Assembly: GCA_903861045.1 (NCBI GenBank)
Contig: CAIOST010000189.1
Coordinates: forward strand, 1 to 47,504
Direction of reading: 5' to 3'
From: an uncultured bacterium
GTDB lineage: Bacteria; Verrucomicrobiota; Kiritimatiellia; RFP12; CAIWXQ01
DNA length: 47,504 nt
Made by a program: the position numbers and the translations under genes. This document shows, piece by piece, positions 632 to 43,781 of this stretch; positions within the stretch are counted from its first letter, which is position 1, and the number at the start of each line of letters is the position of its first letter. Under the pieces are notes generated by a model. The model saw only the letters and a list, made by a program, of their open reading frames with translations. It had not been told where the DNA came from and ran no database searches.

Positions 632-723
632 TGGCGGAGGGGGAGGGATTCGAACCCCCGGTACCCTTGCGGGTACGCATGATTTCGAGTCATGTGCATT
701 CAACCGGGCTCTGCCACCCCTCC
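632..723 (-). tRNA. tRNA-Ser (CGA anticodon)
   Basis: Read on the minus strand, the gene starts GGAGGGG and ends CCCCTCC-G-CCA, giving a perfect 7-bp acceptor stem with the CCA encoded. The anticodon loop is CTCGAAA with anticodon CGA (complement of 685-687), which reads UCG serine codons. A long variable arm built on GTACCC/GGGTAC (about 661-676) and the length of 92 nt are typical of class II serine tRNAs. The T-loop GGTTCGAATCC is present. Short open frames through this region are artefacts of the tRNA. Confidence 0.97.
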
Positions 724-25400: not shown

Positions 25401-25540
25401 CTGATCAGTTTATCCGGCCGCTCGGCCGCCACCAAGCGCACCAGGATCCGGTTGTCTTGCGACGCTTCCTGGGCCGGGGCTACCAGGGCCGCCAGCCACA
25501 GCACTGCCCAATACCCCATGAATGTACAAGCTCGATTCAT
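16433..25540 (-). CDS. Giant multidomain exported protein: glycosidase-like core, two beta-propellers, CBM9-like C-terminus
   Basis: A 3035-aa protein with signal peptide MNRACTFMGYWAVLWLAALV followed by APAQ. Residues about 737-1050 look like a TIM-barrel glycoside hydrolase of the GH42-like kind (YNRFDYWTYSADHHGR, FDGMYMYQEAYESG). About 1130-1210 resemble the glutamine-amidotransferase-like domain that often follows such barrels. About 1650-2030 form a WD/NHL-like propeller. About 2070-2208 look like a carbohydrate-binding sandwich (LINGDCEAKGGW to VDDVTLRRI). About 2267-2380 are discoidin-like. About 2440-2685 form a PQQ-type propeller (GKLYCIDPESGRAFW, DGKVLWTQELGSEF). About 2825-3035 are CBM9-like (VDGLLDDWG). 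I prefer the ATG at 25540; in-frame ATGs at 25579 and farther upstream put a charged stretch before the signal. It is probably a surface or periplasmic polysaccharide-binding protein. Catalytic residues could not be proven. Confidence 0.85.
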   Translation of the reverse strand: MNRACTFMGYWAVLWLAALVAPAQEASQDNRILVRLVAAERPDKLISDLESITPIEDPTSGSVTRQRPNATTPVLGDDATLWVRGASVDRTNTFERYYQGKYINRTSELAFDPAALAVGEHVIEPGHHVFRLEKDGTLTSTDPDIVINGKVVALKTYRVDVFSVDGDKAGPPDTRMLGRPVGVWSIPAGLTLSNEVADLSKVATNLLSHARNFYPLRVYLPANTVGSGYLLSPCIQPFQLIPGGKVTFQEPKVSGLVCDGTRIMIPYLTISAWVNSKTGLSAGLGGIRLPETRTTPARVRIFPTRGDPLFKAGVEGLSMRFGLSLSGNYERYPVKFVVADNTANALAVRLMTLETGGCVFERGVPSTVRLQYKANALALTPADLRKPEALLEALRASTNAPDKASTPLMNVVRRVCKYALTTTDARQAERLMAVLAQSTTDKAKLAEGLVPVLGTLNEWLYERAFLDAKELAALPSDDALRREVARLATLDETQLLRLNRRLLELIFPDVFAPPPAGDGRPKVRMAYSPYDPAHEATRSWTVFETQSWEGDTLTFQAPDVPYGFYVFRVMLGGPEEQGTVSSLMAEFTGCVIEPKQDGTVSFVSNKGRNAFTPGETIRLQTVVRSRNPRAAGERTFLLRHPDGREDRLVFPDAGGKWSSQTVTIPATITRRLLPGRYELTVANLPAGLACFPFRFEMAAPRESLYRMIQSSGTAGTWFLKALESYDIDRGIATFAELGYNRFDYWTYSADHHGRAADSRAVLADTDERLMLPEAIYLPSARDQMLNACVRQGLEFADVLHTAGDNQIPRYIDGYINAGERWMRREVTSMRHSPAFDGMYMYQEAYESGLVGVPARHDTFFPAWRMRRAAEIFTNVTPSQIRKEMSRNVENARVAPANWKPQSLDRFLELRKWEMHGWGDFNTRLAAAGRDLLPRARMSTYHKPFLFVQNGYGAVMSATDFDCGYHPDVFENLDIAASEHYHDGPTLGFWPHSPIMIALQRESPVGGKRLVWANIGMHQESSTLNDGQLQRQMAFAMLQEGADGISQYWVPVSFTEGPNPDTVKAKETTRLLNKEILAPFGELVTRCQPGYLKVGIVNTLAQLSLSEFKNIRTANQLEELWVACWRMGYPAVFLREPELAKAIEGYQVIFVPGIRFKGELPARAVENLQKAIAAGCKVVVERDSTLDAELPGVIKLKDFDLMNYYLGAGYNPAAADDELERIFSKSQRAVDYLRPRMAEWAEPTARGPFKVGPNWRSSGGIHYLLMSNYDDPDYEQTCKDSMAKPVRMPLTVAAYRGAVAYDLLARAELPLGPAGTNQQERSLVLDMTRCQGAMVAFLPEKIAALQLSVRRDAARTSMLLNGSLMGASGKAVTGAFPTRIRLLDGKGQSLYAMYRVLGSTVEDLTVAIPLTAAGCVLEVTENISGKSARIPLEGGAATDKVLCLENSTVPYVPYPSELQRFLTANTNALLVLGRGMEGVSKDVERLVAGLGAKGLKVSVVPEGSVWHVPTGDPTITADPTADGFHYWSGGTGIIAPRVAVDHPLIILSPASGSFLLNSLAEKGFLTELPTASAGLAVPPTIQVASRAFHWKYDTLCVVANDGDSVRRAVDRLLEQSPAATTANASTTEKAQAAISYGAPEKVDGRESLARPSAMSFLGNNEYILDMKFDAAGNIYLITWGHGDNLYSLDPAGKLRFSRRLPEMGASRLDVDSDRVVVFTAYGSRLYQVALDGKPISQACLTMDPGINERGTTYRERATPDLLRHGLAAPEMNLFTELFRYAYLPGKRRVVYYDFLTESMRVLDGDLRLVAEWQGELRISDDGRATRRRMGEFVCSPDGTKVAQMEGNALVLRDLNDAKGRKLSERPMLDLGGSLSWGAGEPGPTMARTHYGADLAPLRQDPPEVTGAMFDLGALGVLVPDGATALRLMRASSTGEVEVARFGTFTHLPTFAQASPDGKHLVFLDEYWMAYVHEVATGKRVGQAKLSEMGFALSFMPDSQKFLVGGLRGAVMCYALDGTLQWSTVLGPFNRSLAQTDFPRLDPAFVDSTEKLFRPLVDEPGELDALVTMDRSRLINGDCEAKGGWQVDTNEAAQAGGVTYADVGHQGRRSLKIGATPVQQQIEGLIGEHFTWVLEFYHRSASPDKPAQLLAGMDVTNRHPDNVVRTLPSGKEWRFDRVVFKSGGDPKSIQVGFQALGGEVLVDDVTLRRIRFPSVNHMLHPPVYDVEPVILHNPLFQRDYDPLGGTLREQIPNIVLAQRTEQIANALLTDSFLQNGRLNDVSSDWYNAPLGTRDTKVALGLKVPRWISMVAVYFNAYDEENTTRHFDIYVSDVNQRKNVRVASVRNNRSLFRLVKFPPCRADQVQVMLVNTVPRQQTLTEVEIYGPMSGSDQIGIVDAEGQNTYMGSFARVDKRAMPVAAMYEAKAMTAEADKKLQPDKVLPRWSVPVSQVLIGEQNVYLSRSYGYNERIPLAEVGGYAATAYRTGGMGFGPCGTMYGGALLKPGSDGKLYCIDPESGRAFWSVLLGERLTGCPVAIGLDVYLATDTGRLYTLDLASGAILGETKLSGPVFGSVATDNQNLYVITASGRLQALPVTGGREAWSVEIARLSDSTPAVDGGVVYLADQKGTARAVRCADGKVLWTQELGSEFCRCPVVLPDQVVFGCSDGKLTALNRSSGARLWQNQQKTRFIRYDPVPLQLASSTPGSTNATGPLQSVLLCMSGRSPQLLDLATGNPAARQLTMGSIKNGKLTPSGGQPGIGDLMAPISYYNGSLAFVTIPHEDRVDAPIYNDTAYHWFMYGTAQMLKALSEPESKEAQDARRIKPVARLEKTVEVDGLLDDWGLSTNTLSGPDGIFPVKSRNKGGMDGKKVWIGFDDLGSKVYLASDDTSLYLAVKVTDDVHMNAKTEDQIVEGDSLQIGCVSPAGVASTLALALTQDGPVIRQLEGGKGSKLAQSANFAILRAEEDQQWKTCYEVRLPLAELGLKAGAEFGLNLAVMDDDDGKGVQYWLQMAPGLAGRDAKTEPPAKLYPRFVLPK

Positions 25541-25630
25541 CAAAACTAACCGTCCCTTCGTCTTTCTGATTCGTGTCATACGGCGTGCTTGGCGAGGTGT
25601 GGCACCACCATGCGTCCCGGCGCCGGTCAC

Positions 25631-26458
25631 CTAGTGCGTCAGTGCAAAAAAGATCCAGTTCATGCTGAAGCGGTACACGGGTTCCCGCTGATCATCACCG
25701 GCCATACCATGCGCCCCCTCGCCGAGAGGGTTGAGGGCGGTCGGAGGCGTGGAGATCTCCCAGCGGCAACCATAATCATTCGGGCAGAAGATAATCGCCG
25801 GGCGCCCGCGCACAAAGGCCGCCTGGAAGGGGCGGTTGAACTGCTCTTTGAACAGGTTGGGGTACCCCTCGAAGGCGTACAACATGTTAAACAGGTCGAA
25901 GAACTCCGGCGAATCGCGCAGCATGGTCTTCATCTCGGCACCGGGGATGATGCGCTGCACATTTTGCGCCACGCACTCCATGAACGGGCCGCTCCCTGTG
26001 CAGTCATCTAGCAAGAGCGTACCGCCCCGCTCCACGTATTTGCGCAGGTTGATCACCTCATCGTCCGAGAAGGAGAAGGAGAAGTGGCTGGTGAAGTAGA
26101 CGAGCGGGTAGTCGAAGATCTCCTCACTCGTCACATCCAGCCCCGCGTTATTACAATACCAGGTGAAATCATCATCCGTGCGCAGTCGCATCTGGTAGAG
26201 GAGATACGGCAGCGCGGTCGGGTCGTTCTCCCAGTCCGAGAAGCATTGCGGCCGAAGGCGGCGGATGGTGACCTTGCCACGCACATCCTCATCCTTGCCG
26301 GCCTTCTTGCCGGCGCTGGCCGGATCGTAGATCTTCTGCTCTTTGCTGGCGCCCTTGCGCAGCCACCCCTGCGCTGTGGCACTCCCAGGTGCCAGCAGCA
26401 CAATGGCAAACACCAACAGCAGGCCGGTTCTCGCAAATAATCCCGCACGGCTTTTCAT
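25631..26458 (-). CDS. DUF4159 domain-containing exported protein
   Basis: A 275-aa protein starting at the ATG with GGAGAT 7 nt upstream. Residues 1-30 form a signal peptide (GLLLVFAIVLLAPGSATAQG). The remainder matches DUF4159: the block FDYPLVYFTSHFSFSFSDDE is followed by LRKYVERGGTLLLDDCTGSG, and it ends FSMNWIFFALTH. The domain has a flavodoxin/GATase-like look and is regularly encoded beside MoxR, DUF58 and vWA genes in the PVC group and Bacteroidetes. Biochemical function is unknown. It lies between the two giant exoproteins of the operon, 90 bp from the downstream start. Confidence 0.9.
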   Translation of the reverse strand: MKSRAGLFARTGLLLVFAIVLLAPGSATAQGWLRKGASKEQKIYDPASAGKKAGKDEDVRGKVTIRRLRPQCFSDWENDPTALPYLLYQMRLRTDDDFTWYCNNAGLDVTSEEIFDYPLVYFTSHFSFSFSDDEVINLRKYVERGGTLLLDDCTGSGPFMECVAQNVQRIIPGAEMKTMLRDSPEFFDLFNMLYAFEGYPNLFKEQFNRPFQAAFVRGRPAIIFCPNDYGCRWEISTPPTALNPLGEGAHGMAGDDQREPVYRFSMNWIFFALTH

Positions 26459-26545
26459 GATCGCATCTCCATCACCGTTCCTTTGTGGCACGTGTGCGGT
26501 TTCGACGAAGGAACCCGCACCAACCCCGCCGTCCTTGCGTCGCCG

Positions 26546-29500
26546 CTAGCGCGGCGTCTCCTTCAGAAACAGGGTAGGCACCACCCAGTTCGCCAAATCA
26601 TTATCCAGCCCGTCGCCGCTATCGTCCACGATCAACATCAAGCGATCCGCCTCGTCGAGCTTATCCACTTGCAACGTCTTGGGCAGCGTCATGCCGGTCA
26701 CCAGGCCGGACTTGGTCCGCTCCTTGCCATCCACCAGGATCCGGAAGTTGACGGTCCCCTTGCCACGCGCGGCGCCATCAATCCCGACGATCACTTCCAG
26801 CCGGGTGTACTGCTTATTCAACGGATATTCCAGCACGGTGCCACCCAGGCAGCCAATTCCCGTCGCATACCCCTGCTTGCCGATGGTCAACGCACCGCCC
26901 CAGGCATTGTGATAGAGTTGAGCCGCAACCCCCGCATCGCGATAGGCCAGCGGACTGCAATCGCTCAGATCCACCGCCCCCCCGGCCAGCGTCGTCACGC
27001 GGAAGCCGCCGGAAGAGCCCGGCCCGTCATGCCGCAGCACCACCTCGTTGCGTCCGGCCCGACCACCACGCAAGGCCAGCGCCGAACGCCGCGGACCGGG
27101 GACGTAGACCGACTGGAGGTCATTCGAGGAGACCCCGGGGGAAGGTTTCAAGTTCCACGCCAAGTCTGGCGCGCCATTGAGCGACACGCGTACGCTGCGC
27201 GCATCCGTCCCCATCAACCACATGCGGCTCAACAGCAGATCGCCCGGTTTATCAAGCGTGAACGCGAAGCGCTCCTCGGTCACCCCACGCAGGAAACCGG
27301 CGGGCGGCACGCGTTCGCCGCCAAACACCTTGCCAGAGACGCGTTCCACCTTGTCGCCGCCGGTCACGGTATACCCCGCCACCTGCCGCGAATAGGGGTC
27401 TGCCGGACTAAAGTCAAGTGCCAGCGTATAGTTTGTCCCCGTCTCCTGCGGCTGCAGATTGCGCAATTCATGCGTCACGCGCTCCACGGTCACGGCCGGC
27501 GGGAAGCGCACAAAGAGCGGCATCCCCCCCAGTACCATCTGCTTATCCAGGGCGACAGGCGTACCAAAGGCATCGGTGCCTTTCGCCTCACTCCATTCGG
27601 CGGGGAGGCGAAACGCCCGCGTTCCGCGCGCCCGCCAGAGGACGGCACAGACACCGCCCGCACTCTTTTGCCGGAAGAGGTAGGCGCGATTGGCCAACGC
27701 ATCCCGGTCGGCAATTGCCACCCGCTGCTGCAGTTCCAGATCTGCCAGCGCCTTCTGCAGCTCCAGTCGGACAAAGTACGCCGGCTTGGGGACATAGAAC
27801 GAGCGGGGTGGTTGCGTGAAGCTGTTCCCATAGCGCGGGCGATATACGACGCCGAACGCGTCGCGCTTTTCATCCGGGCCGGTGATCTGGAACTTATGCG
27901 GCAGGAAGTTCCGGGCCTGCAACAGGATCGCGGCACGCGCGTGATACGCGGCTTGATCCAGCAGCGAGAAGCTATCCCCCGTCTCCCAGTCCAGTTCTGC
28001 CAACGCAACTTTGCGGCCGGTCTCCGTCAAATGCAGCTTCGTATCGAGATCGTCGAGGAAATCCTCCAGTTGCAACGCTTCCACGGAGGCGCCGCCGGGG
28101 TTCACGCGCACTTCGAAGCGGTTGAACGGCAGCTTCTCGGGTTCCGGCATGTCGGCCAGGTAGTTCAGGACGCGGTCAAACGTGAAGCCACCTGCCACCA
28201 CACAGGCATTCGTGTTGTAGAGCGAGACCCACTGGCTGAAGACGCGGAACATGTTCGCGTACTTATCCGGCGCCAGATAGACCGGCGACTCTTTCATATC
28301 CGGGCTCTGCCAGAAAACCCAGGTATTGAACTCCGTGGCATGCTCGCGGGCGACGGAGCGGGCAAAGCTATCCCAGTCCGCCAGACGCGCCGGCGATTGC
28401 ATGTAGTTGCCGGTGCCGCGCACATACGAACCATCAGCCAGCGCCGGCTGTTTTTCCGGGCCGGCCCAATCCGCGGCATACCCGACCATCGGAATCATGG
28501 TATAGACATTATTCTCGGACTTAGCGGCCGCAAAGCGACGAATCCAGTTCTGGTAATAGAGATTCGGCACCGGCTCAGCCGTATCCCAGTCCAGATTGAA
28601 CAAGCGCTCCGTGAAGCCCAAATCGGTATTCAGTCCATTCAAGTCCGACAGGCGGGTCATCGGGGTGTCGCCAAAGTACTTCTTGCGGTCCGGCACCTGA
28701 ATATCTGCATCCAGGGTGCGTCCGCCAGGCAGCCCTTCCACGCGCACATGGCAGAACCCTTCCCGCAACTTCTCGCAGAGCGGAACATACGTGCGGGAGC
28801 CGACCGGCAGGCTGGTCTTGCGCACGCCACCATCCACCGGCAACCCCGCCGCCGACGTGAGCCGATACTCGATTTCACTTGTGACCGCATTGGAAGAGAA
28901 ATTTGCCAGCACCATGCGCAGCGGCTCACCGGCCAGATGCAGCATGGTCTCATCCGGGTAGTCCAGCTCGCAGCGCCACTCATCCTCGGGTGCCAGATGG
29001 GTATTCACCTTGATCTGATCCACACGGATGTTGGCTGGCGTGCCGTCGGCCGCACGCGCCGTCAGCAGCAGGTTCAACGGATAGAACGGCGAATAGTACG
29101 GATTCCCGGCGCCGGTCGTATAGTTCGGCGGGATCGCGGGTGCCGCAAAGCGGCAGAGTTTCCACCCCTTCCAGTCCACGAGCACCGGCGGGGCGGCAAA
29201 CTGGTTGTAGGTCATGTCAAAGTCGCGCGAGCCGCTGTCGGCAAAGATCGGCTGCAAGATCACCGGCGCACCCTCACCGCCCCACACCTGCATCTCCACG
29301 CTTTCGACCACGCCGGGCAGAGCCGGATGCAGCATGACGCCGGTCAGGCGATTCGAAACCACGTCGAGCGGCAGCGCATACTTGGTGCCGTCCGCCCCCC
29401 CTGCCACCGGGTCTGCGCCCGGCCCCAGGTCTTTCCCCGGTGCATTGAAGTGCTCCAACCGCTCAAAATCCCAGCAGACCGCCCCGCCGGTCGGCCGGGC

Positions 29501-31204
29501 AAAGACGATCTTCCCCTGTACACGCTGCCCGGGAACCGGGCCGGTGACCACCACCACCGCAGTAACAGGGCCGCGCGGCTTGCCGGCAGCGACCTTGGCC
29601 AGCGCCAGAGCCTTGGTAGTAAACTCGCCGGAGGCCGCCTCCATGGGTTCGGTCAACTCGCACACCGTCGCGCCTACCGCGTCCTGGAAGGTGGCGGTCA
29701 GGCGTCCGCCGCGCAGCTCACTGCCGGAGCCGTTACCCACCGTCACCAGCAGTTGCGCGTTGTCATCCAGCGTCCGTCCCGGCGTGTTGCTGCGCAACTC
29801 CAGCGTCATGCGCTCGTTGCGATTGGCCTGGGTCTCCAGCATGAGATCGTCAATCCAGACCGAGCGCAGCGTGACATTCGTGGCGGCCTCTTTCGACAGC
29901 GGTTCCGGGAGCACCCGCAAGGCGGCCAGATACACCGGCATCTGGATGGGATGCCGGACTTCCTGACCGGAATGCCCCGCCATGTAAGCCATGCTGTCGC
30001 GCCCCGGCAGGCCGTCGCCCATCACAGGCACGCTGAAACAGCGCCACTCTGTGAAGTCCAACCGACAGATCTCCATGCTGGCCGTATTCATAAAGCGACG
30101 GTAGCCCGCTGCGTTAAAGTTACACGGGTCACGCCATTCCAGCATCAGGCGGTCACGGGTGCCATTCCCTTTCACCCAAACGCGGGCTACGACCGGCACA
30201 CCGGGCAACTTCAAATTGCTGCCAATCACCGTCACCGCCGGCGGCAGGTAATCAATCCGGAGACTACGGTTACCGCTATGCCGGACTTCCGTGTCAAAGA
30301 CCGGGGTGGCAAAGGGCTGATAGAAGCTATACAAGGTGCCGGGCAGCCTGCCCGGGTCCAACGGGGTCTTGGGCAAGAGGTAATCGAGCGCGCAGCCGGG
30401 CAGCGCCTTGGCCGCCGGAATATGCCAGTTCGCCAACGTGTCGCCCTCCATGCCCGCGACAGGCGCCAGCGTCGTGGCAAACGGGAAGCGCAGATCGCCG
30501 GCAAACGAGTTCAGCCCCAACGCTTCATTGTTCAACGTAAAGGTGAGATTATACGGGCCAAAGGAGGTATCGCGCTTAGGCGTAATATCCATCTCAAAGT
30601 CTGTGGCCTCGTTCTCTGGCAGTTCGACCGTCAGCGTCCGGCTCGTCAGGTGATTGGCCTCGCCATCCAGCAAATGCCATTCCAGTGCCACCGCCTGTGC
30701 GAGCCCCAGTTTGTTGCGGGCAAAATTAAGAGCCAAGCGCGCCGTGCGGTTGGTGAAATCGCCGGCCACGCGCACACTGTAACTCTCTAGCGCCTGCTTC
30801 GGCTTGAGCATACTTACGTACTCAGCACAGGACAAGCCGAGCGCCTCATCGCGCACAGTGATGCGGATATAGTCGTTGGTGGGCCACACGCCATCTTTGC
30901 CAGCCAACAACGGGAAGCTGGCGGTCGCCGGTTTCCCTTTGCCATCCAGCTTCAGGGCATACCCGTCCGTGAACCCCGGCACAACCTCCCCGCGCAACGA
31001 AAACCCTTTCACGCCAATCAAAACCGTCCGTTCCTTGCCGGCCTCCGGGACGATGCCCGCCGGATCGACCGTCACCTGCACCTGCGGCAGATCGCCGATC
31101 CTAACGACCTTGGCATGAAAGTCCGGCGCCGCATAGCCGATCGTGCTCAGGCCCAACCCTGCAACCGCCAGGAGCAGCGCCACCCATCTAAGATCCTGCT
31201 TCAT
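26546..31204 (-). CDS. Large exported protein with glycosidase-like barrel and NPCBM domain
   Basis: A 1552-aa protein. Its N-terminus MKQDLRWVALLLAVAGLGLS is a signal peptide. The N-terminal half is made of beta-sandwich modules, several looking like galactose-binding folds (HSGNRSLRIDYLPPA; VWIDDLMLETQ). Residues about 842-1118 look like a TIM-barrel hydrolase region, with acidic candidates in FNTWVFWQSPDMKESP and ALAELDWETGDS; their role as acid/base and nucleophile is inference. Residues about 1410-1550 match an NPCBM (novel putative carbohydrate-binding) domain: SPLAYRDAGVAAQLYHNAW, GTVLEYPLN, LEVIVGIDG and VDDSGDGLDND. The start overlaps the stop of the upstream gene by 4 bp, indicating translational coupling with the membrane machinery. 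The antisense strand has a very long open frame here, a GC-composition shadow. Confidence 0.88.
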   Translation of the reverse strand: MKQDLRWVALLLAVAGLGLSTIGYAAPDFHAKVVRIGDLPQVQVTVDPAGIVPEAGKERTVLIGVKGFSLRGEVVPGFTDGYALKLDGKGKPATASFPLLAGKDGVWPTNDYIRITVRDEALGLSCAEYVSMLKPKQALESYSVRVAGDFTNRTARLALNFARNKLGLAQAVALEWHLLDGEANHLTSRTLTVELPENEATDFEMDITPKRDTSFGPYNLTFTLNNEALGLNSFAGDLRFPFATTLAPVAGMEGDTLANWHIPAAKALPGCALDYLLPKTPLDPGRLPGTLYSFYQPFATPVFDTEVRHSGNRSLRIDYLPPAVTVIGSNLKLPGVPVVARVWVKGNGTRDRLMLEWRDPCNFNAAGYRRFMNTASMEICRLDFTEWRCFSVPVMGDGLPGRDSMAYMAGHSGQEVRHPIQMPVYLAALRVLPEPLSKEAATNVTLRSVWIDDLMLETQANRNERMTLELRSNTPGRTLDDNAQLLVTVGNGSGSELRGGRLTATFQDAVGATVCELTEPMEAASGEFTTKALALAKVAAGKPRGPVTAVVVVTGPVPGQRVQGKIVFARPTGGAVCWDFERLEHFNAPGKDLGPGADPVAGGADGTKYALPLDVVSNRLTGVMLHPALPGVVESVEMQVWGGEGAPVILQPIFADSGSRDFDMTYNQFAAPPVLVDWKGWKLCRFAAPAIPPNYTTGAGNPYYSPFYPLNLLLTARAADGTPANIRVDQIKVNTHLAPEDEWRCELDYPDETMLHLAGEPLRMVLANFSSNAVTSEIEYRLTSAAGLPVDGGVRKTSLPVGSRTYVPLCEKLREGFCHVRVEGLPGGRTLDADIQVPDRKKYFGDTPMTRLSDLNGLNTDLGFTERLFNLDWDTAEPVPNLYYQNWIRRFAAAKSENNVYTMIPMVGYAADWAGPEKQPALADGSYVRGTGNYMQSPARLADWDSFARSVAREHATEFNTWVFWQSPDMKESPVYLAPDKYANMFRVFSQWVSLYNTNACVVAGGFTFDRVLNYLADMPEPEKLPFNRFEVRVNPGGASVEALQLEDFLDDLDTKLHLTETGRKVALAELDWETGDSFSLLDQAAYHARAAILLQARNFLPHKFQITGPDEKRDAFGVVYRPRYGNSFTQPPRSFYVPKPAYFVRLELQKALADLELQQRVAIADRDALANRAYLFRQKSAGGVCAVLWRARGTRAFRLPAEWSEAKGTDAFGTPVALDKQMVLGGMPLFVRFPPAVTVERVTHELRNLQPQETGTNYTLALDFSPADPYSRQVAGYTVTGGDKVERVSGKVFGGERVPPAGFLRGVTEERFAFTLDKPGDLLLSRMWLMGTDARSVRVSLNGAPDLAWNLKPSPGVSSNDLQSVYVPGPRRSALALRGGRAGRNEVVLRHDGPGSSGGFRVTTLAGGAVDLSDCSPLAYRDAGVAAQLYHNAWGGALTIGKQGYATGIGCLGGTVLEYPLNKQYTRLEVIVGIDGAARGKGTVNFRILVDGKERTKSGLVTGMTLPKTLQVDKLDEADRLMLIVDDSGDGLDNDLANWVVPTLFLKETPR

Positions 31205-32985
31205 TTGCCTCCTCCTGCCGTCGCGCTCGTATAGCCACTGCGCGTCCGGGCATCATCCCCCCGGGTGGGGGCGCGGGTGACGTTCTGATCGTCACGCTTG
31301 TAATCGGACACTTTCTGTTCAGGCTTCGCGACACTCGAAGGTAGCCCGACGCCGATATTAGGTTTGCCCTCCCCTCTACCGTACTGTTTCGTACCTTTCG
31401 GCCCGCGCGTGTCATCAAACGGCCTCTCGATCGCCCCGCCCATCGAGCCATTCTCCAGATCGTCCGCATGTAAGAAAATCGAGAACCAGGCGGAAACCGT
31501 GGATTGCGCCTTGGGCAGGCGATTGTCGAACGCCTCAATCTGGAAGGAGTAGATATCGCCGGGCTTGCCGGACTGCTCCTGGAAGATGCGCTCGAACGGC
31601 ACAATCGCCAGGATCTTGGAAGGCAGCAACGGGCGTTCAACCTCCCCCTTATCCTGCACGCGGTTGCGGTCATCCGTGTTGGCCTTCTGCCAGCGCAACA
31701 CACACTTGGCCACGCCGTAATCGTCCTCGGCGCGTACCCCGAAGCCATAACTGTTGAGCGCACCGACCGGGCAGGGCATATCCTGCTTCAAGTAGGGCGG
31801 CACAATCAGCTTCGGCGACTTGTCCACCGCGAGGCTGAGTTCCAGAGCGTACGGCATTTCCAGTGCAAAGCCGTGCACATCCTCCACCTGCAGTTTAGCG
31901 CGCCGCTCCTGTGCATGCATAAACGAGAGCGAGGCAAACCGGCCCGCCACATCCAGCGGGATGCGCTCGCCGTCCTCAAAGGTCAGCACCGCCCAACTCA
32001 GCGGCTTACTGAACGTGAACCCCATGCTGACGCGCGTGCCCGGCAGCGCCGTGACACGATCCTGCAAGCCGTCGAGCTCCTTCGGCACCATCCGCGTGTA
32101 GGCCGGGTACGTGAGTTCGGTCTGCATATTCTCAATGACAGGGGGCATGGCGAAGATCAACTGCATCGGCTCCGTAACCCGCCGGCCGAAGCGGAAGCGG
32201 ACCTCGTACTCCCCAGCCAGGGCAGACTGCAACGTCTTGCCAGCCTGCCGCGCCGCATCCACCGGCAGCTTGCTCTGTTCCACGCCCTCCCGGCCCGTCA
32301 GCGCGCTGAGCATCGTCACTTCCGGATAGCCGAAGCGCGTGAAACGGATCCCGGCCACCACATTGGTACCGACCCGATAGACGTGGCGCCCCGCCCCCGG
32401 CACCAGTACATACCGTGTCGGGAACACACGCTCCCGCAAATCCAGCGTGCTACTGCTGACCGTACGCCCCAACCGGGCAAACCCGAAGGGGCTGAAGAGG
32501 CCCAGCGCTAGAAAACCAACCAGCAGCAGGGCAAACCACTTGCCCCAGCGGTTGCGCGCGCTACGGTCCAGCAACTGTTCAAAGGGACGTGCCAGATCCT
32601 GCTGCGCGGCGGCAATCACCGCCTCCTTCATCGGCGTCACGTCGTCATGCTGCAGGAAGTCCACTGCGCTGATCAGCCGGCTGTATAGATCCCCGGCCAA
32701 CTCTTCGATGCGGAAGGCCTCGGAGAGCACCGACCGACGGCGATCCCAACGCAGGATGCTGCGTACCAGCAACACCAGTAGGGCGCCCGACGCCACCAGC
32801 GTCAGCCCTACATTGACAAACGGATTGGCCGTCCAGCCGCAGAGCAGGAGCAGCGATGCCACCCCGATCAGCAGTGCCAGGGATCCCGCCGTGAAGAACA
32901 GGGCGGCATTCCGCAGGCTGCGCCGCACGCTACCGAAGCGGCGGATGCGCAGGTCGAACTGTTTCCTTATCTCGTTCCTATCCAT
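31201..32985 (-). CDS. DUF4175-like membrane protein
   Basis: A 594-aa protein with two N-terminal transmembrane segments (residues about 27-50 and 54-74), a cytoplasmic-looking stretch, a third membrane segment at about 146-168 (FALLLVGFLALGLFSPFGF) and a large presumably periplasmic region of beta-rich character (YPAYTRMVPKELDG, VRAEDDYGVAKCVLRW). This layout and the AEDDYG phrase fit the DUF4175 family found with MoxR/vWA genes. The C-terminus is polar and glycine-rich, hence probably disordered. It overlaps the 1552-aa gene by 4 bp and lies 24 bp from the upstream vWA gene, so it is firmly inside the operon. Function unknown; it may link the vWA proteins to exported clients. Confidence 0.82.
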   Translation of the reverse strand: MDRNEIRKQFDLRIRRFGSVRRSLRNAALFFTAGSLALLIGVASLLLLCGWTANPFVNVGLTLVASGALLVLLVRSILRWDRRRSVLSEAFRIEELAGDLYSRLISAVDFLQHDDVTPMKEAVIAAAQQDLARPFEQLLDRSARNRWGKWFALLLVGFLALGLFSPFGFARLGRTVSSSTLDLRERVFPTRYVLVPGAGRHVYRVGTNVVAGIRFTRFGYPEVTMLSALTGREGVEQSKLPVDAARQAGKTLQSALAGEYEVRFRFGRRVTEPMQLIFAMPPVIENMQTELTYPAYTRMVPKELDGLQDRVTALPGTRVSMGFTFSKPLSWAVLTFEDGERIPLDVAGRFASLSFMHAQERRAKLQVEDVHGFALEMPYALELSLAVDKSPKLIVPPYLKQDMPCPVGALNSYGFGVRAEDDYGVAKCVLRWQKANTDDRNRVQDKGEVERPLLPSKILAIVPFERIFQEQSGKPGDIYSFQIEAFDNRLPKAQSTVSAWFSIFLHADDLENGSMGGAIERPFDDTRGPKGTKQYGRGEGKPNIGVGLPSSVAKPEQKVSDYKRDDQNVTRAPTRGDDARTRSGYTSATAGGGK

Positions 32986-33009: not shown

Positions 33010-35280
33010 CTACGCCAGCCCTTGCCGTTTGCGTATGTAACAATCGACGCAGACGAGCAGGATGAACAACACCAGCACTGCCGGACTGTTCCACAACTCC
33101 AAATCGCGCGAGACCGGCTCTGCCGCCGGCCGCAGGTTCGCCTGCTTGACCCACGCCGGGACCGCCTCCACCACGGTGCCGCCAGCCGCCTTGGCCAGCG
33201 CCTGCATGCCGGCGCGATCCACGGCCAGCTCCGCATATTCATCATCCTGGCCGCGCACCACGAACTTGGTCGTCTGCTGTTCCTTCCCTTGCTGGAGCGT
33301 GGCGGTCCAGTCGCCGGCCTGATCCGCCGGGAAGCGATACTCGTAGTGGCCGGGGCGGTCGGGAAGATCGCAGGGGTAGATGGTCAGAGTCTGCTTGTTC
33401 GGCTTCGTCACCACCACCTTCAACTCCGCCATGCGCACCGGCTCATAATTCTTGTCGCGCAGTAGGGTGGAGAGCACCACGGTCTGCCCCAGCGCGGGGG
33501 TCGGATCCGCCGGCACGATATTCAGATTGCCAGCCCGCAACCCCGCCTCGGGCGCCAGGTAACGAACCATGTTCCCCAGCAGGGTTTCCAGCGGCGGGTT
33601 ATCGTAGGTGGGCTGCAATTGCCAGCGCCCCAAGGTATCCACCGACGCGGCCACGATCTTGCCGTCGCCAAAGTCCTGACAGGCTAGGATCGGCACTTCC
33701 CGCACTTCCTTGAGCCCCGACGGCAACTGGATTTCCACGTAGCGCGACAGCAGCGGCCGCGCCATAGGCTTGACCAACCCGACGTTGTTACATCCATCGA
33801 GTTGCGGCAGGTTATTCCACATCTCCCGGTTGGCCGCCGCATCCGGCAGCAGCCGCAACAGGGGGTGTTCATGCAGATTGTTGACGACATTCACCGAGAA
33901 TTTGCCCGGGAATTGCGGATTCTTGGAAACGGCGTCGCTCAGGTCATACGGCAGAAGGGTCGCCAGCGGGCTGTCTTGATAGCCGCCGGCACGATAAACA
34001 TTCTGGCCGCCCATGACCACCAGACCGCCGCCGCGCTTCTGCACAAAGGGCGTCAAGAGCTTCATGGCCGCCTCATTGGTGTCTGACCCTACGAGGAAGA
34101 GATTGCGCGGTAGATCCAACAGAACCACCATGTCGTACTTAAACAGTTCCGGCGCATACGCAATGACCCCATCGGCCGCGTTGGCGTGCAGCGCCCCGCC
34201 CTGCACATAGACGCCGCCACCCGGCAGATGACTGACCGACACCAGGTGCACCAGCGGATCCGTGGCCATAGCCGCCTTCATGAGCTTGAATTCGTACCCT
34301 GGCAACCCTTCCACCATCAGCACATTGATCTTCTCGTCGCGCGCATCCACAAAGAAGGAACAGGCCGCGGCGGCGCGATCCGGACTGTCTGCGTCCATGG
34401 TCAGCGTATAGCGGTGCATCCCGGCCTTCTCCGGTCGGTAGAGTACATCAAACCACCCGTACGACTCGCGCGGGATGCTGACCGTGCGCACCACCTTGCC
34501 ATCTTCCAGCAGCTTGACATCGCGGGCACTCTTGCTGGAGGGATCCTTCAGGCTGCCGTGCATGGCAATGGTCTCACCCAACCGGATCACGCTGCGCTCC
34601 GGTGTCACGCGAATGCTGGAACTGGGCTTCGGCTGATCCGAGCCATAGAGGGCTATGTCCAGCGCCACGCCGCGCGACTTCAGCGCCTCGGCCGTGAGGG
34701 TATAATCGGTTTGACCCACGTCCCGCCCGTCCGTGAGCAAGAGCAGGCGCTGCAACCGCGGCCGCTCGGCGAGTTCCCGCAGGATGGCATCGTGAATATG
34801 CGTCGGGGTCTTCTCGCCGGCTTCGTCCTGCACGGGCGCCGCGCTCAAGGAAGCCACATCGAACGCCACGCGGCGCCCCACCGCCTCGCGCACCTGCTTC
34901 ACATCCGCGACCGCCGCACGGAAGCGGGGTTCCCCTCGCACATCCGCGGTGCGCATGGATCCGGAGTCATCCACCAAGGCCAGCCAGGCAGGGATGCGCG
35001 CCATTTGCAGGTCGAGCTGCAAGTGCGCGCGTACCAGCACCAGCATCAGCAAAGCCACCATCCCCAGTCGCAACGCGAAACAATAGATGCGCGTGCGCAA
35101 CTGCATCCGGACCACTGGTAGGAAGCTAACTGCCGCCAGCAGTACGCCCATGCCCAGTGCCACCCAGACCACCCAGGACATCCCCGGCGGTAACCAGGCA
35201 TCCATGACCAACCGGCCATGCGTCACCCGCTCAATCGGCGTGAACGGATCCAATCCGAGCCATTTAAATAGTTGATCCAT
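33010..35280 (-). CDS. vWA domain membrane protein with GATase-like domain
   Basis: A 756-aa protein with two N-terminal transmembrane helices (about 35-56 and 65-85), then a von Willebrand factor A domain beginning ALVDDSGSMR. D104, S106 and S108 form the MIDAS DxSxS metal site. A segment near 300-480 (ELFKYDMVVLLDLPR and FVQKRGGGLVVMGGQNVYRAGG) resembles the glutamine-amidotransferase-like fold common in BatA-type proteins, and a C-terminal helix (AVLVLFILLVCVDCYI) re-enters the membrane. It overlaps the preceding gene by 17 bp. vWA proteins of this type pair with MoxR ATPases; here it would act as the membrane-bound adaptor. Confidence 0.9.
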   Translation of the reverse strand: MDQLFKWLGLDPFTPIERVTHGRLVMDAWLPPGMSWVVWVALGMGVLLAAVSFLPVVRMQLRTRIYCFALRLGMVALLMLVLVRAHLQLDLQMARIPAWLALVDDSGSMRTADVRGEPRFRAAVADVKQVREAVGRRVAFDVASLSAAPVQDEAGEKTPTHIHDAILRELAERPRLQRLLLLTDGRDVGQTDYTLTAEALKSRGVALDIALYGSDQPKPSSSIRVTPERSVIRLGETIAMHGSLKDPSSKSARDVKLLEDGKVVRTVSIPRESYGWFDVLYRPEKAGMHRYTLTMDADSPDRAAAACSFFVDARDEKINVLMVEGLPGYEFKLMKAAMATDPLVHLVSVSHLPGGGVYVQGGALHANAADGVIAYAPELFKYDMVVLLDLPRNLFLVGSDTNEAAMKLLTPFVQKRGGGLVVMGGQNVYRAGGYQDSPLATLLPYDLSDAVSKNPQFPGKFSVNVVNNLHEHPLLRLLPDAAANREMWNNLPQLDGCNNVGLVKPMARPLLSRYVEIQLPSGLKEVREVPILACQDFGDGKIVAASVDTLGRWQLQPTYDNPPLETLLGNMVRYLAPEAGLRAGNLNIVPADPTPALGQTVVLSTLLRDKNYEPVRMAELKVVVTKPNKQTLTIYPCDLPDRPGHYEYRFPADQAGDWTATLQQGKEQQTTKFVVRGQDDEYAELAVDRAGMQALAKAAGGTVVEAVPAWVKQANLRPAAEPVSRDLELWNSPAVLVLFILLVCVDCYIRKRQGLA

Positions 35281-37414
35281 GCGTCACCTTCTTACGCCGT
35301 AAAAAAACTGATCCCAGCGTCTCCGCGGTCAGAGCCAGGAAGAGGAGCAGCAATAGCCACGGGAAGAGTTCCCGGCGCGGCTGGAAGAGCCCGTCCAGGC
35401 GATCGGAGGGCAGCGCCACGTTCCCCTTCCCGCCACACAGCTTGGACAACTGCTCCGTGCTCATCACGACCTGCCCCGATTCCCCCTGCGCCCGGTTGAC
35501 GGCCACCCAGCGATCCTTGACCACTTTGGTCGGGGAGGTGTGTGCCACGCGATAGGCGCCAGCGACAAACATATCTTTGAGCGTCACCACCGCGGCATCG
35601 GCCGGCATATCGAACGCATACCGGCGGGGCCCTTGGACCACCACGTTGCTCGACCCGCGGAAATCCAGCGGCAGCACGAGGCGGTGATAATCCCCCACGC
35701 GCATGTGATCCATCCGGCCATCCGAAACTTCGCCTTCCGGCACGGCCAGGCGGCCGAGCAGCGCGTGCACCACGGAGACGAACGGCAAAGCGCGCGGCAT
35801 CGTGGTTTCCTGGATGCTCCAGCTATGGGTCTGGACGCAGACATGCCCCTTGCCCAGCGTCACCATGGCCAGCAGCGTATCCCCGTCCGCCGTCTTCAAG
35901 GCCGGCCGGGCCTTCCCCAGCTGCGTGGCATCAAAGTAACGACTGACGAAGATATCGTTGACCGTGCCCCACTCGCCCCGCAGCAAGCTTACGAGCAGGG
36001 GGTCCGTCAGGCTCTTTTCCCGGGTGTCGAGTGCCGCTGGAGATTTCGGTTCGCGTAGGCCGCCCAACCGGAAGCCATCCAGCACTTTCGCAAAAGTCTC
36101 ATTGAACAGGGATGGATTGTTGGAGGCATCTGGAATCAAGTACAACCCGCCACCATTGCGCGCATACATCTCCAGGTCCTGCACCATCTCGGCCGAGGGG
36201 AGTTCCTGCACGCCATAGAGGATCACGGTGGTGTAAAGCGACAAGGCCTTGCGCTCCAGCGCGCTGAACCCGACGCGTGTCACGCGGATGTTCGCGCCGG
36301 AATCCTCCAACCCCATGGCCTGTACCGGGTTGATGGCACAGGCCAGCAGGTCTGCGCCGGTGTCGCCGATCACCGCGCCTTCCGGCACCGGATAGCGCGG
36401 TCCGGTCACCAGCAACACCTCGCGCGTTTTCAACATGCGCACGGTGGTATACTGGTCGTTATCCGCATTAAAGGCGTCCTCAGAGAGGCTAACCTTCCAG
36501 GCCGTATCAACGGGCGAATCAAAGATGTTGCGCATCTCGGCCTGCACCGTTTCGCCACTGGCCACATTGCAGGCCCGGCTCTCCACCAGCGAAAGGCCAT
36601 TATAAAGCGAAACTGTCACAGCCATCTGGGTATCGGAGCCATTCTGGAAGGTGGCGCTGACTTTGCTGCCCGAACCGGGGTAGGTACGCGCGGGTTGGAA
36701 CTCGGCGGAACACATCTCTGCATTCGCCCCATTTGTCACCGGGTCCAGCACAAAGACCGGCTGAATAGACGTGCCATCCAGCAAGGGGGCCAGGGCCGGC
36801 TGATCGAACTGCGCGCGATAGTTCTGCGCCTGCTGATCCGAGAAGACCAGCAAGGCCATATTCAACGCCCGCCGGGAGCGCAACTCCCGCAGATTTTCTT
36901 CCACCGTGGTATAGAGGCAACGTCCGCCGCCGTCGCTCACCCAGGCATTGGTCACGGCCTGCTCCAAGGACGTGCGATCGCTGGTGAACCCGGTGCTCGC
37001 AAAGACATTGTCCCCCACCAGCGTGAAGGAGAAGCAATCGCCGGTGCGCATGCCGCGCACCAGTTGCAGGATGCGCCCGCGGTGCGACTCAAAGAGCGTA
37101 GTCTTGCCATCCGGACAGAACCGGCGCATGCTCATCGAGTTGTCCAGCACCAGAGCCACCGTGCGCGGCCCGACCTCCGCACTGGGCTTGGTCAGACGGG
37201 CCATCAGCAGCACAAAGATCGACAACAACAGCAGGCGCAGCAGCAACTGGATCCAGTCGCGCGGCACCGGGGCGAAGGCGTTGGTGACATCCTGCGGGTC
37301 CAGGAAGCGCAACGTGGCTAGGACCTGCGGCTTCATGCGCCGCCGGTTGATCAAATGGATCACCACGGGGATGCCCAGTCCCAGCAGCCCCAGGAGCATC
37401 ATGGGGTACAACAT
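35264..37414 (-). CDS. BatA-type vWA membrane protein
   Basis: A 716-aa protein. The N-terminus LLGLLGLGIPVVIHLINRRR is the canonical BatA N-terminal membrane motif. A second helix is at about 55-72. The vWA domain starts VALVLDNSMSMRR with MIDAS residues D91, S93 and S95. Later sections include a GATase-like fold (YARNGGGLYLIPDASN), and the C-terminus has a hydrophobic helix (LFPWLLLLLFLALTAETL) followed by RRKK. It overlaps its upstream neighbour by 1 nt (TGATG) and the downstream gene by 17 bp. In family context it is a cell-envelope partner of MoxR and DUF58. The second vWA gene next to it suggests a heteromeric pair. Confidence 0.9.
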   Translation of the reverse strand: MLYPMMLLGLLGLGIPVVIHLINRRRMKPQVLATLRFLDPQDVTNAFAPVPRDWIQLLLRLLLLSIFVLLMARLTKPSAEVGPRTVALVLDNSMSMRRFCPDGKTTLFESHRGRILQLVRGMRTGDCFSFTLVGDNVFASTGFTSDRTSLEQAVTNAWVSDGGGRCLYTTVEENLRELRSRRALNMALLVFSDQQAQNYRAQFDQPALAPLLDGTSIQPVFVLDPVTNGANAEMCSAEFQPARTYPGSGSKVSATFQNGSDTQMAVTVSLYNGLSLVESRACNVASGETVQAEMRNIFDSPVDTAWKVSLSEDAFNADNDQYTTVRMLKTREVLLVTGPRYPVPEGAVIGDTGADLLACAINPVQAMGLEDSGANIRVTRVGFSALERKALSLYTTVILYGVQELPSAEMVQDLEMYARNGGGLYLIPDASNNPSLFNETFAKVLDGFRLGGLREPKSPAALDTREKSLTDPLLVSLLRGEWGTVNDIFVSRYFDATQLGKARPALKTADGDTLLAMVTLGKGHVCVQTHSWSIQETTMPRALPFVSVVHALLGRLAVPEGEVSDGRMDHMRVGDYHRLVLPLDFRGSSNVVVQGPRRYAFDMPADAAVVTLKDMFVAGAYRVAHTSPTKVVKDRWVAVNRAQGESGQVVMSTEQLSKLCGGKGNVALPSDRLDGLFQPRRELFPWLLLLLFLALTAETLGSVFLRRKKVTHGSTI

Positions 37415-38328
37415 CAGCCGAACCTCCGCATCAGGCGGCGCAGGAAATGCGACCGCAACAGAACCATCAGATCCGCATTGTTCTGAACCGGCACATAATC
37501 AATGCGCGCTTTGCGGCAGAAGCTCTCCAGCGACGACTGGTGCTCTCGCAACCGCTGCAGATAGCGATCGCGCACATCCGACGGGTTAGCCGCCAGCCGC
37601 GCCCCGGTCTCCGGATGCCGGAACTCGGTCATGCGCGTGAACGGAAACTCTACCTCGGCCAGATCCAGCACCTGCAGCAAGGTAACATCATTATGTCGTG
37701 CCACCATGTTGCGCATGGCTTTGTATAGCGGCTCCAGCTCATCCAGCGCATCCGTGATCACAAAGACCATGCCCCGCGCCTGCACATGCCCGCCCAAGTG
37801 GGCAATCTGCGTGCCGAACGCACCGCCCCCCGTACCGCGCGGCGCCCCCAGGTGCTGGAAGAGCTGCGCCAGGTGGTTCATCCCCTGCCGGGCCGGGATG
37901 CGCTCCTCGATCTTATCGCCCACCAGGCACAACCCCGCCGCATCCTGCTGCGAGATCACCATGGTGGCAATCGCCCCAGTGATGGCCGCCGCCAACTCCA
38001 GCTTGGAAGGCAACCCGTCCGGCGGGGGGACGCGCATGGAGTCCGACGTGTCCAGCAGCAGATGCACGCGCATGTTCGCTTCCATCTCGTGCCGCTTGAC
38101 GTAATGCCGGTCCGTACGTGCAAACACCCGCCAGTCAATCGAGCGGATCGCATCCCCCTTCTGGTACTCGCGGTGGTCAATGAACTCCGTCGAGGAACCA
38201 AAGTCGGAGGTGCGATGCCGATTGTTGTACATCCCGCGCACCAGCATGCGGGAGCGCAGGTGCACCCCCTTCAGCGACTGCAGAAGGCGCGGGTCAATCT
38301 TCATGCCTGAGGACACAGCGGCACTCAT
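37414..38328 (-). CDS. DUF58 domain-containing protein
   Basis: A 304-aa soluble protein. The DUF58 core is plain: the block STEFIDHREYQKGDAIRSI runs into DWRVFARTDRHYVKRHE at residues about 46-81, then a vWA-like domain with LLLDTSDSM (about 90-98). DUF58 proteins are almost always encoded directly after a MoxR AAA ATPase and are thought to be its vWA-type partner. The start lies 10 bp after the moxR stop, and the stop overlaps the next start by 1 nt. An internal ATG at 38304 is a possible alternative start. Confidence 0.94.
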   Translation of the reverse strand: MSAAVSSGMKIDPRLLQSLKGVHLRSRMLVRGMYNNRHRTSDFGSSTEFIDHREYQKGDAIRSIDWRVFARTDRHYVKRHEMEANMRVHLLLDTSDSMRVPPPDGLPSKLELAAAITGAIATMVISQQDAAGLCLVGDKIEERIPARQGMNHLAQLFQHLGAPRGTGGGAFGTQIAHLGGHVQARGMVFVITDALDELEPLYKAMRNMVARHNDVTLLQVLDLAEVEFPFTRMTEFRHPETGARLAANPSDVRDRYLQRLREHQSSLESFCRKARIDYVPVQNNADLMVLLRSHFLRRLMRRFG

Positions 38329-38338
38329 GGGAGCCCTT

Positions 38339-39349
38339 TTACTTGCTCTCCGCCGGGATCGTCGCGAGCAGTTTCTCGATGATCGTCACGTTGTCCAACC
38401 GTTCCGCCATGGCGTTGAAGTTCAACGCGATGCGATGGCGCAACACGCTCACGGCCACGGCCCGCACATCCTCGATGGAGGCGTGGGCGCGGCCACTGAG
38501 CACGGCGTGGGCCTTGGCGCCCAGGGCCAGGTACTGCGCGGCGCGCGGCCCCGCCCCCCAGCTCAGGTATTCCTTCACGAAGTCCGGCGCGCCGGCGTCT
38601 TTCGGGCGCGAGGCGGCGGAGAGGCGCACGGCGTAGTTCACCACCGGCCGTGCAATCGGCACGCGCCGCACCATCTTCTGAATCTGCAGAATCTCGTCCT
38701 TGTCCATTACCGCATTCACGGTAGGCGTCGTGCCGCTAGTGGTATTGATCACAATATCCTCCAACTCCGCGTTGGTCGGATAGTCCACGAAGGTGTTGAA
38801 CATGAAGCGGTCCATCTGCGCCTCGGGGAGCGGATAGGTCCCCTCCTGCTCCAGCGGGTTCTGCGTGGCCATCACCAGGAAGGGGCGCTCCAGCGCAATG
38901 GTCTCGCGCCCGGCCGTGACTTCCCGCTCCTGCATGGCCTGCAGCAAAGCGGCCTGCGTCTTCGGCGGCGTACGGTTGATTTCGTCGGCCAGCAACAGGT
39001 TGGTGAACACCGGCCCCGGAATAAAGCGGAAGGAGCGCCGACCCGTGGTCGCATCCTCCTCGATGATCTCCGAGCCCGTGATATCACCCGGCAGCAGGTC
39101 CGGCGTGAACTGAACACGCTTGAAGTTGAGCTTCAGCACCCGCGCCAAGGTGGCGATCAACAGGGTTTTGGCCAACCCCGGCACCCCCAACAGCAGAATG
39201 TGCGAATCGCAAAAAAGGGCCATGAGCACGTCATCGATCACCTTGGTCTGACCGACAATGACCTTGCCGATCTCGCCCAAGATGCGCGTGTGTGCGTCCT
39301 TGTACTTCAGAATCACATCCATGTCCTGAACCGGTTCTTCTTTTGCCAT
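38339..39349 (-). CDS. MoxR-family AAA+ ATPase
   Basis: A 336-aa AAA+ ATPase of the MoxR group, which works with vWA-domain partners in metal insertion, complex maturation or envelope stress functions. Walker A is GVPGLAKT at residues 55-62 and Walker B is LLLADEIN near 118-125. Sensor 1 is in [21 protein letters not shown] chose the ATG at 39349 because AGAGGT lies upstream at the right distance. A longer frame back to 39394 would start inside the sigma-54 promoter and is rejected. First gene of the 23-kb operon. Confidence 0.95.
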
Positions 39350-39378
39350 TTGAGTACCTCTTCGTTTTTCCACCATCG

Positions 39379-39420
39379 TGACACGGGTAAACAAGCAAAA
39401 AACGTGCCAATCCCGTGTTA
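39379..39420. repeat. Inverted repeat bracketing the sigma-54 promoter
   Basis: ACACGGG at 39381-39387 and CCCGTGT at 39412-39418 are perfectly complementary and sit symmetrically on both sides of the -12/-24 elements. It could be a repressor dyad, a hairpin or coincidence. Confidence 0.45.
39393..39410 (-). promoter_or_regulatory. Sigma-54 (RpoN) promoter for the moxR operon
   Basis: The minus strand reads TTGGCACG-TTTT-TTGCT. This matches the sigma-54 consensus YTGGCACG-N4-TTGCW at every defined base, and the invariant GG and GC are exactly 10 bp apart. The predicted start site (about 39383) would give a leader near 34 nt with AGAGGT before the moxR ATG. Sigma-54 promoters need an enhancer-binding ATPase; no gene for one is in the window. 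Confidence 0.75.
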
Positions 39421-39679
39421 GCGCCAGACTGCCTCGGGCACTGCCACAAATACCCTAGCAAAAACGCATTTTTTGTGCGAAAACACCTACCCACAACCCA
39501 TCCCCCACGACCCGACGTCCTCTGCATACGCTGCTACGCAGCCTAGCGGCCGACGGACAGGGGGATAGCGAGCTGGCATCTTGTCACAACTTGCGCGGCT
39601 TGCCAACCGAAAGATACCCGAAAAAAAGCCGCGTTTTTCGATGCAAGGTCATGCTGAAGGGGATGACCTCCGTTCCCAC

Positions 39680-39696
39680 CACGAAGCACACGAAGG
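39680..39696. repeat. CACGAAG array, 9-nt period
   Basis: CACGAAG at 39680-39686 is repeated at 39689-39695. It belongs in style with the 9-nt-period arrays at 139-166, 953-1020 and 15544-15577. Confidence 0.45.
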
Positions 39697-39701
39697 TGTT
39701 T

Positions 39702-39717
39702 GTTTTGCCGGCAAAAC
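39702..39717. promoter_or_regulatory. 16-bp perfect palindrome upstream of trmL
   Basis: GTTTTGCCGGCAAAAC is a perfect dyad 44 bp before the trmL start. It has the size and symmetry of a dimeric repressor operator, but no regulator gene lies nearby. Confidence 0.4.
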
Positions 39718-39761
39718 CATGGGGATGGCCAACAGACTGACAAACTGCTATCCTCCTGGCC

Positions 39762-43693: not shown

Positions 43694-43781
43694 TGGCGGA
43701 GGGAGAGGGATTCGAACCCCCGGTACCTTGCGGTACGTCGGTTTTCAAGACCGATGCTTTAAACCACTCAGCCATCCCTCC
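43694..43781 (-). tRNA. tRNA-Ser (TGA anticodon)
   Basis: On the minus strand the gene starts GGAGGGA and ends TCCCTCC-G-CCA, with the CCA encoded. The anticodon loop CTTGAAA gives TGA (complement of 43745-43747), reading UCA and related serine codons. The long variable arm (GTACCG/CGGTAC region) and 88-nt length fit a class II serine tRNA. It shares acceptor, T-arm and variable-arm style with the tRNA-Ser(CGA) at 632-723. Confidence 0.97.

Follow-up and report, generated by a model that had tools for sequence, protein, structure and literature searches.

MoxR/VWA operons are common, and in general it is not known what triggers them. The locus described here raises the question of whether such an operon is controlled by sigma-54, and whether this control concerns a single operon or an entire bacterial order. 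The stretch of DNA that was analysed (47,504 nucleotides, hereafter the window) belongs to a genome of 4.73 Mb in 406 contigs, which is about 90% complete. It contains a closely packed run of eight minus-strand genes, extending over approximately 23 kb from 39349 down to 16433. The intergenic gaps in this run range from -17 to +54 nt, and judging by this spacing the eight genes appear to be co-transcribed. The first gene encodes a MoxR-family AAA+ ATPase (38339–39349; PF07726, 6e-61) and is followed, after a gap of 10 nt, by a gene for a DUF58 protein (37414–38328; PF01882, 7.5e-44) and, overlapping the latter, one for a BatA/VWA membrane protein (35264–37414; PF07584, 4e-8; TIGR02226). MoxR (with AAA_3 and AAA_lid_2), DUF58 and BatA/VWA are thus adjacent, as in MoxR/BatA-type operons. 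The remaining genes encode a protein with a sub-threshold MG2 match (33010–35280; PF01835, 30.4 bits with a cut-off of 32.8), a 594-aa protein with no Pfam match (31201–32985), a 1552-aa protein with a C-terminal NPCBM domain (26546–31204; PF08305, 4.6e-23), a DUF4159 protein (25631–26491; PF13709, 1.4e-28) and, at the end of the run, a 3065-aa protein with a PQQ-type beta-propeller (16433–25630; PF13360, 7.6e-35). Close to its C-terminus, the latter also matches CBM9 below the threshold. Lentisphaerae metagenome-assembled genomes provide the nearest named relatives of the MoxR protein (71–72% identity). Two tRNA genes are present elsewhere on the minus strand of the window (635–723 and 43697–43781).

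The MoxR gene is preceded by a sigma-54 core, TTGGCACGTTTTTTGCT, at 39410–39394 on the minus strand. As claimed in the preliminary description, the match to the consensus is perfect, and TTGGCACG-N4-TTGCT at this position is the only match with 0 mismatches in the window. The invariant GG (-24) and GC (-12) of TTGGCACG-N4-TTGCW are correctly spaced. The core is intergenic: on one side lies the MoxR start codon (39349), and on the other a gene for a SpoU-type RNA methyltransferase runs divergently from 39762. It lies on the strand of the MoxR gene, approximately 45 nt upstream of its ATG. An exact site is expected 0.0012 times per window and 1e-5 times per intergenic stretch of 413 nt; matches with up to three mismatches occur at chance level (31 found, 27.8 expected). 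Assuming the established geometry of sigma-54 promoters, in which the start lies 12 nt downstream of the -12 C, the GC at -13/-12 would place the transcription start near 39383, the position proposed earlier as well. This would leave a leader of 34 nt, and a purine-rich GAAGAGG precedes the MoxR ATG. Approximately 130 nt upstream of the promoter lies another dyad, GCTGCNNNGCAGC (GCTGCN3GCAGC, 39530–39542), which by its position is a candidate activator site. No activator gene was recognised within the window.

The genome does encode the machinery that such a promoter needs. It has two rpoN genes (3.7e-59 and 4.1e-48), both with the ARRTVAKYR RpoN box, and 11 strong Sigma54_activat matches, i.e., enhancer-binding ATPases; three further weak matches are probably other AAA+ proteins. 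The objection anticipated in the preliminary description, namely a genome without rpoN, therefore falls away. The two RpoN paralogs are located at G000:C10 and G000:C83, while most relatives show one. In the order as a whole, RpoN was found in 148 of 161 genomes. Moreover, the consensus is over-represented relative to a backwards-read control. In the source genome, TGGCAN6TTGCT occurs 21 times versus 5 in the control and TGGCACGN4TTGC with at most one mismatch 196 times versus 116; across 40 genomes (120.7 Mb), TGGCAYGN4TTGCT occurs 103 times versus 19. By inspection of the open frames, approximately nine of the 21 sites are promoter-like in placement, and most of the others fall inside long open frames. 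One of the promoter-like sites is followed after 90 nt by the gene for a type III glutamine synthetase (locus L294), glutamine synthetase being a classical sigma-54 target. The identical copies of TGGCACGGGAGTTGC at G000:C83:5041 and G000:C283:2941, the second of which is overlapped by an open frame, were discarded because they probably represent a dispersed repeat and not promoters.

Very probably, then, the site is a genuine sigma-54 promoter that transcribes the operon from MoxR, DUF58 and BatA/VWA through to the giant protein (39349 to 16433). RNA polymerase carrying sigma-54 would form a closed complex at the -24/-12 elements, and initiation near 39383 would have to await the activation of an NtrC-type enhancer-binding ATPase whose gene lies elsewhere in the genome. 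Conditional expression of the operon would follow from this established sigma-54 mechanism.

The comparison with relatives proposed in the preliminary description gives less support, as the window promoter is not conserved in most of its direct orthologs. Footprinting on these orthologs failed: the search yielded just four orthologous operons (G005, G015, L050 and L051), of which at most one keeps a site, and a degenerate one. This is L050, with TGGCATGTTTCCTGCG at -88. In L051, another open frame abuts MoxR. The G005:C11 operon (72% identity in MoxR) has no sigma-54 consensus site. By eye, TTGACA-N17-TATGCT can be recognised at L021:1372–1400 of this operon, an apparent change of promoter class. 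At G015:C10, BatA is retained (57%), with no intact MoxR before it and no site; this locus, L205, is a BatA-led relative of the window operon.

The alternative that survives best, possible but clearly less likely than a single inducible promoter, is that tandem promoters serve the operon: a basal one of the sigma-70 type and an inducible sigma-54 promoter. This is the arrangement of E. coli glnA, where the sigma-54 promoter of the tandem is the inducible one. Suggestive of it is a 13-nt element, TGCTAGGGTATTT, at 39448–39460 on the minus strand, which may be a second promoter or a regulator site. A second copy immediately precedes the sigma-54-like site of glutamine synthetase III (L294, about 1522–1534), in the same orientation, and the element perhaps includes an extended -10-like TGCTAGGGTA (39460–39451). 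The orthologous operon in G005, furthermore, carries a sigma-70-like promoter. On the other hand, no sigma-70 match at 9/12 or 8/12 is present in the region, and a few chance 13-mer matches are to be expected in the 248 kb compared. The likeness to glnA thus consists of a sigma-54 promoter with possibly a second promoter upstream, the second one being conjectural in the window. For the condition-dependent operon proposed in the preliminary description, this means that one half of the claim holds up better than the other. Sigma-54 dependence is supported by RpoN, the activators, the excess of 21 sites over 5, the glutamine synthetase site and the recurrence at MoxR operons described below, but since TGCTAGGGTATTT may be a second promoter, "silent" may be too strong a word for the operon before activation.

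Sigma-54 sites recur at the MoxR loci of the order. Of the 40 genomes, 39 contributed the 88 MoxR matches that were listed. Seven were dropped (six fragments, and G036:C280 with 167 nt of upstream sequence), leaving 81 loci with up to 8 kb of upstream sequence each, 443,218 bp in total. TGGCAYGN4TTGCT occurs here six times on the same strand as MoxR and never on the opposite strand. On both strands together 0.38 sites are expected (Poisson 3e-6), an estimate in which genome sizes are rounded and sites in orthologous operons are not independent. Besides the window site, the six comprise one at G000:C192, before a run of propeller, MoxR, DUF58 and BatA genes, two before Gld-type operons (G001:C29 and G031:C31), and two before MoxR genes with extra N-terminal sequence, one 116 nt upstream (G009:C33) and the other 205 nt upstream, where the extra sequence is an FHA domain (G039:C46). 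This was the only pattern compared with genome-wide density. After the hits had been inspected, the pattern was loosened to allow R at position 7 and Y within TTGC: TGGCAYRN4TTGCW gives nine same-strand and no opposite-strand sites (0 and 0 read backwards) and TGGCAYRN4YTGCW 15 and one (0 and 1 read backwards), the latter at 14 of the 81 loci. The other 67 have no strict site, partly through lack of upstream sequence. Three further sites of the TGGCAYRN4YTGCW type directly precede MoxR, at G028:C115 (at -63), G011:C344 (at -119) and G020:C197 (at -139).

Within the source genome, three of the five MoxR loci (window, C192 and C44) have a site, i.e., three of the four that are testable: C378 has none in 5 kb upstream, and at C35 the available upstream sequence is 126 nt long. 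The link does not extend to MoxR in general, since no excess is seen at 80 MoxR relatives mostly from other phyla, L050 and L051 included: 387 kb contained no strict same-strand site and, allowing one mismatch, eight same-strand and five opposite-strand sites versus nine and eight read backwards. A shared-word search of the three MoxR promoters of the source genome returned no common 8-mer and nothing coherent, with a slight excess of shorter words (13 shared 6-mers versus 5.1 in mononucleotide shuffles and three shared 7-mers versus 0.44). Among 15 promoters, no common palindromic half-site rose above shuffles. The window promoter would be one case of a habit of the order, in which MoxR operons are headed by sigma-54 promoters.

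This habit is most regular in one class of loci. At eight of the 81, homologs of GldG or DUF4340 are encoded upstream of MoxR, and in every one of these eight Gld-type operons the ABC gene, which comes first, has a sigma-54-like site at most 400 nt upstream; six sites are strict and two have one mismatch to TGGCAYRN4YTGCW. In five of the eight, a histidine kinase and an NtrC-type regulator are encoded directly upstream, giving a module in the order histidine kinase, NtrC-type regulator, sigma-54-like promoter, Gld-type ABC ATPase, permease, GldG, DUF4340 and MoxR. These five are G000:C44 (L133:150–8760), G005:C96 (L137), G015:C34 (L253), G007:C10 (L245) and G011:C404 (L247). Close relatives of the regulator exist in G001, G005 and G031 (80, 72 and 62% identity), whereas the best match in G009 and G039 is at 44–46%. 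A palindrome, GACAN3TGTC, is a candidate enhancer for this regulator. It is present at L133:8726–8759 and in the upstream stretches of L137, L253, L247, L278, L246, L244 and L245. Counted on the very loci in which it had been picked by eye, it occurs 17 times in 448 kb. Of these copies, 11 precede a YGGCAYRN4YTGCW site by no more than 400 nt, and 10 form five pairs spaced 21–23 bp apart. In four loci it lies 56–88 nt before a CGGCAC-type sigma-54-like site. The exact CGACAN3TGTCG occurs at nine places in the source genome versus six in the backwards control, so the motif is not clearly enriched genome-wide.

The kinase and NtrC pair of C44, located beside the Gld-type MoxR operon, might also activate the window promoter, as the two promoters belong to the same genome, precede the same kind of target and have a similar core (TGGCACACTTTTTGCT versus TGGCACGTTTTTTGCT). 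We consider this improbable: GACAN3TGTC occurs neither in 39351–39761, where CGACAN3TGTCG is matched with three mismatches at best, nor upstream of the C192 promoter. Therefore, another activator probably serves the window promoter.

The site is also flanked by an inverted repeat, which had been proposed to bind a repressor that occludes RNA polymerase. The arms are present as described, exact and 7 bp long: on the plus strand, ACACGGG at 39381–39387, overlapping the predicted start, and CCCGTGT at 39412–39418. Their location at about -35 to -29 and -4 to +3, with arm starts 31 bp apart or roughly three helical turns, would suit such a role. However, when window positions were treated as 17-nt pseudo-sites, exact 7-bp arms within 25 nt on either side bracketed 1319 of 47364 (2.8%), and such arms appeared in 1.2% of 5000 flank shuffles, which places a dyad spotted post hoc weakly above chance. 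No counterpart was found at the other loci scanned in the same genome. With arms near chance and no counterpart elsewhere, the repressor is unsupported and very unlikely, and the dyad is probably incidental. Least likely of all, by a little, is a chance or non-functional match of the sigma-54 core itself, which would explain its absence from most direct orthologs but is at odds with an expectation of 0.0012 in the window, with its occurrence on the right strand and in the right place, and with the recurrence of such sites at MoxR operons.

The window promoter resembles known -24/-12 promoters (TGGCAYRN4TTGCW) in its perfect core and spacing, its intergenic position before the first gene of an operon and the presence of RpoN and activators in the genome; it differs in its target, a MoxR/BatA-type envelope operon. 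This operon in turn shares the row of MoxR, DUF58 and BatA/VWA with the Bat/aerotolerance operons of Bacteroides, Leptospira and Borrelia, but adds NPCBM, DUF4159 and the 3065-aa propeller protein, as well as a sigma-54 promoter. In Borrelia, bat-like genes have been measured under low oxygen together with rpoN as a control, and the accessible part of that study holds no claim of a sigma-54 promoter for them (PMC5700661). Sigma-54 has been predicted to control the bacterial exterior (Francke et al., 2011; PMC3162934), a theme that the window operon fits; "MoxR", "Lentisphaera" and "Planctomycet-" do not appear in the main text of that paper, nor do "MoxR" and "Lentisphaer-" in the main text of a cross-phylum comparison of sigma-54 regulons from 2025 (PMC12316311). 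No link between sigma-54 and MoxR was found in the main text of PMC7159879. In the open-access literature searched, no report connecting sigma-54 promoters with MoxR operons was found.

A single good sigma-54 promoter is ordinary in itself; it is the recurrence at the level of the order that is worth following. Given these recurrent promoters, the MoxR operons of the order look switchable rather than constantly on. On balance, we lean towards a picture in which sigma-54 and NtrC-type two-component systems are the standing controller of MoxR chaperone operons in this Lentisphaerae-affiliated order. The module of kinase, NtrC, sigma-54 promoter, Gld-type ABC, GldG, DUF4340 and MoxR, with its paired GACAN3TGTC enhancer, would be ancestral, and the 23-kb envelope operon of the window would be a lineage-specific recruit with an activator of its own. 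A sigma-54 promoter at a MoxR operon implies an identifiable activator and signal, and through the conserved module of kinase, NtrC and GACAN3TGTC, one class of MoxR operons becomes directly open to testing.
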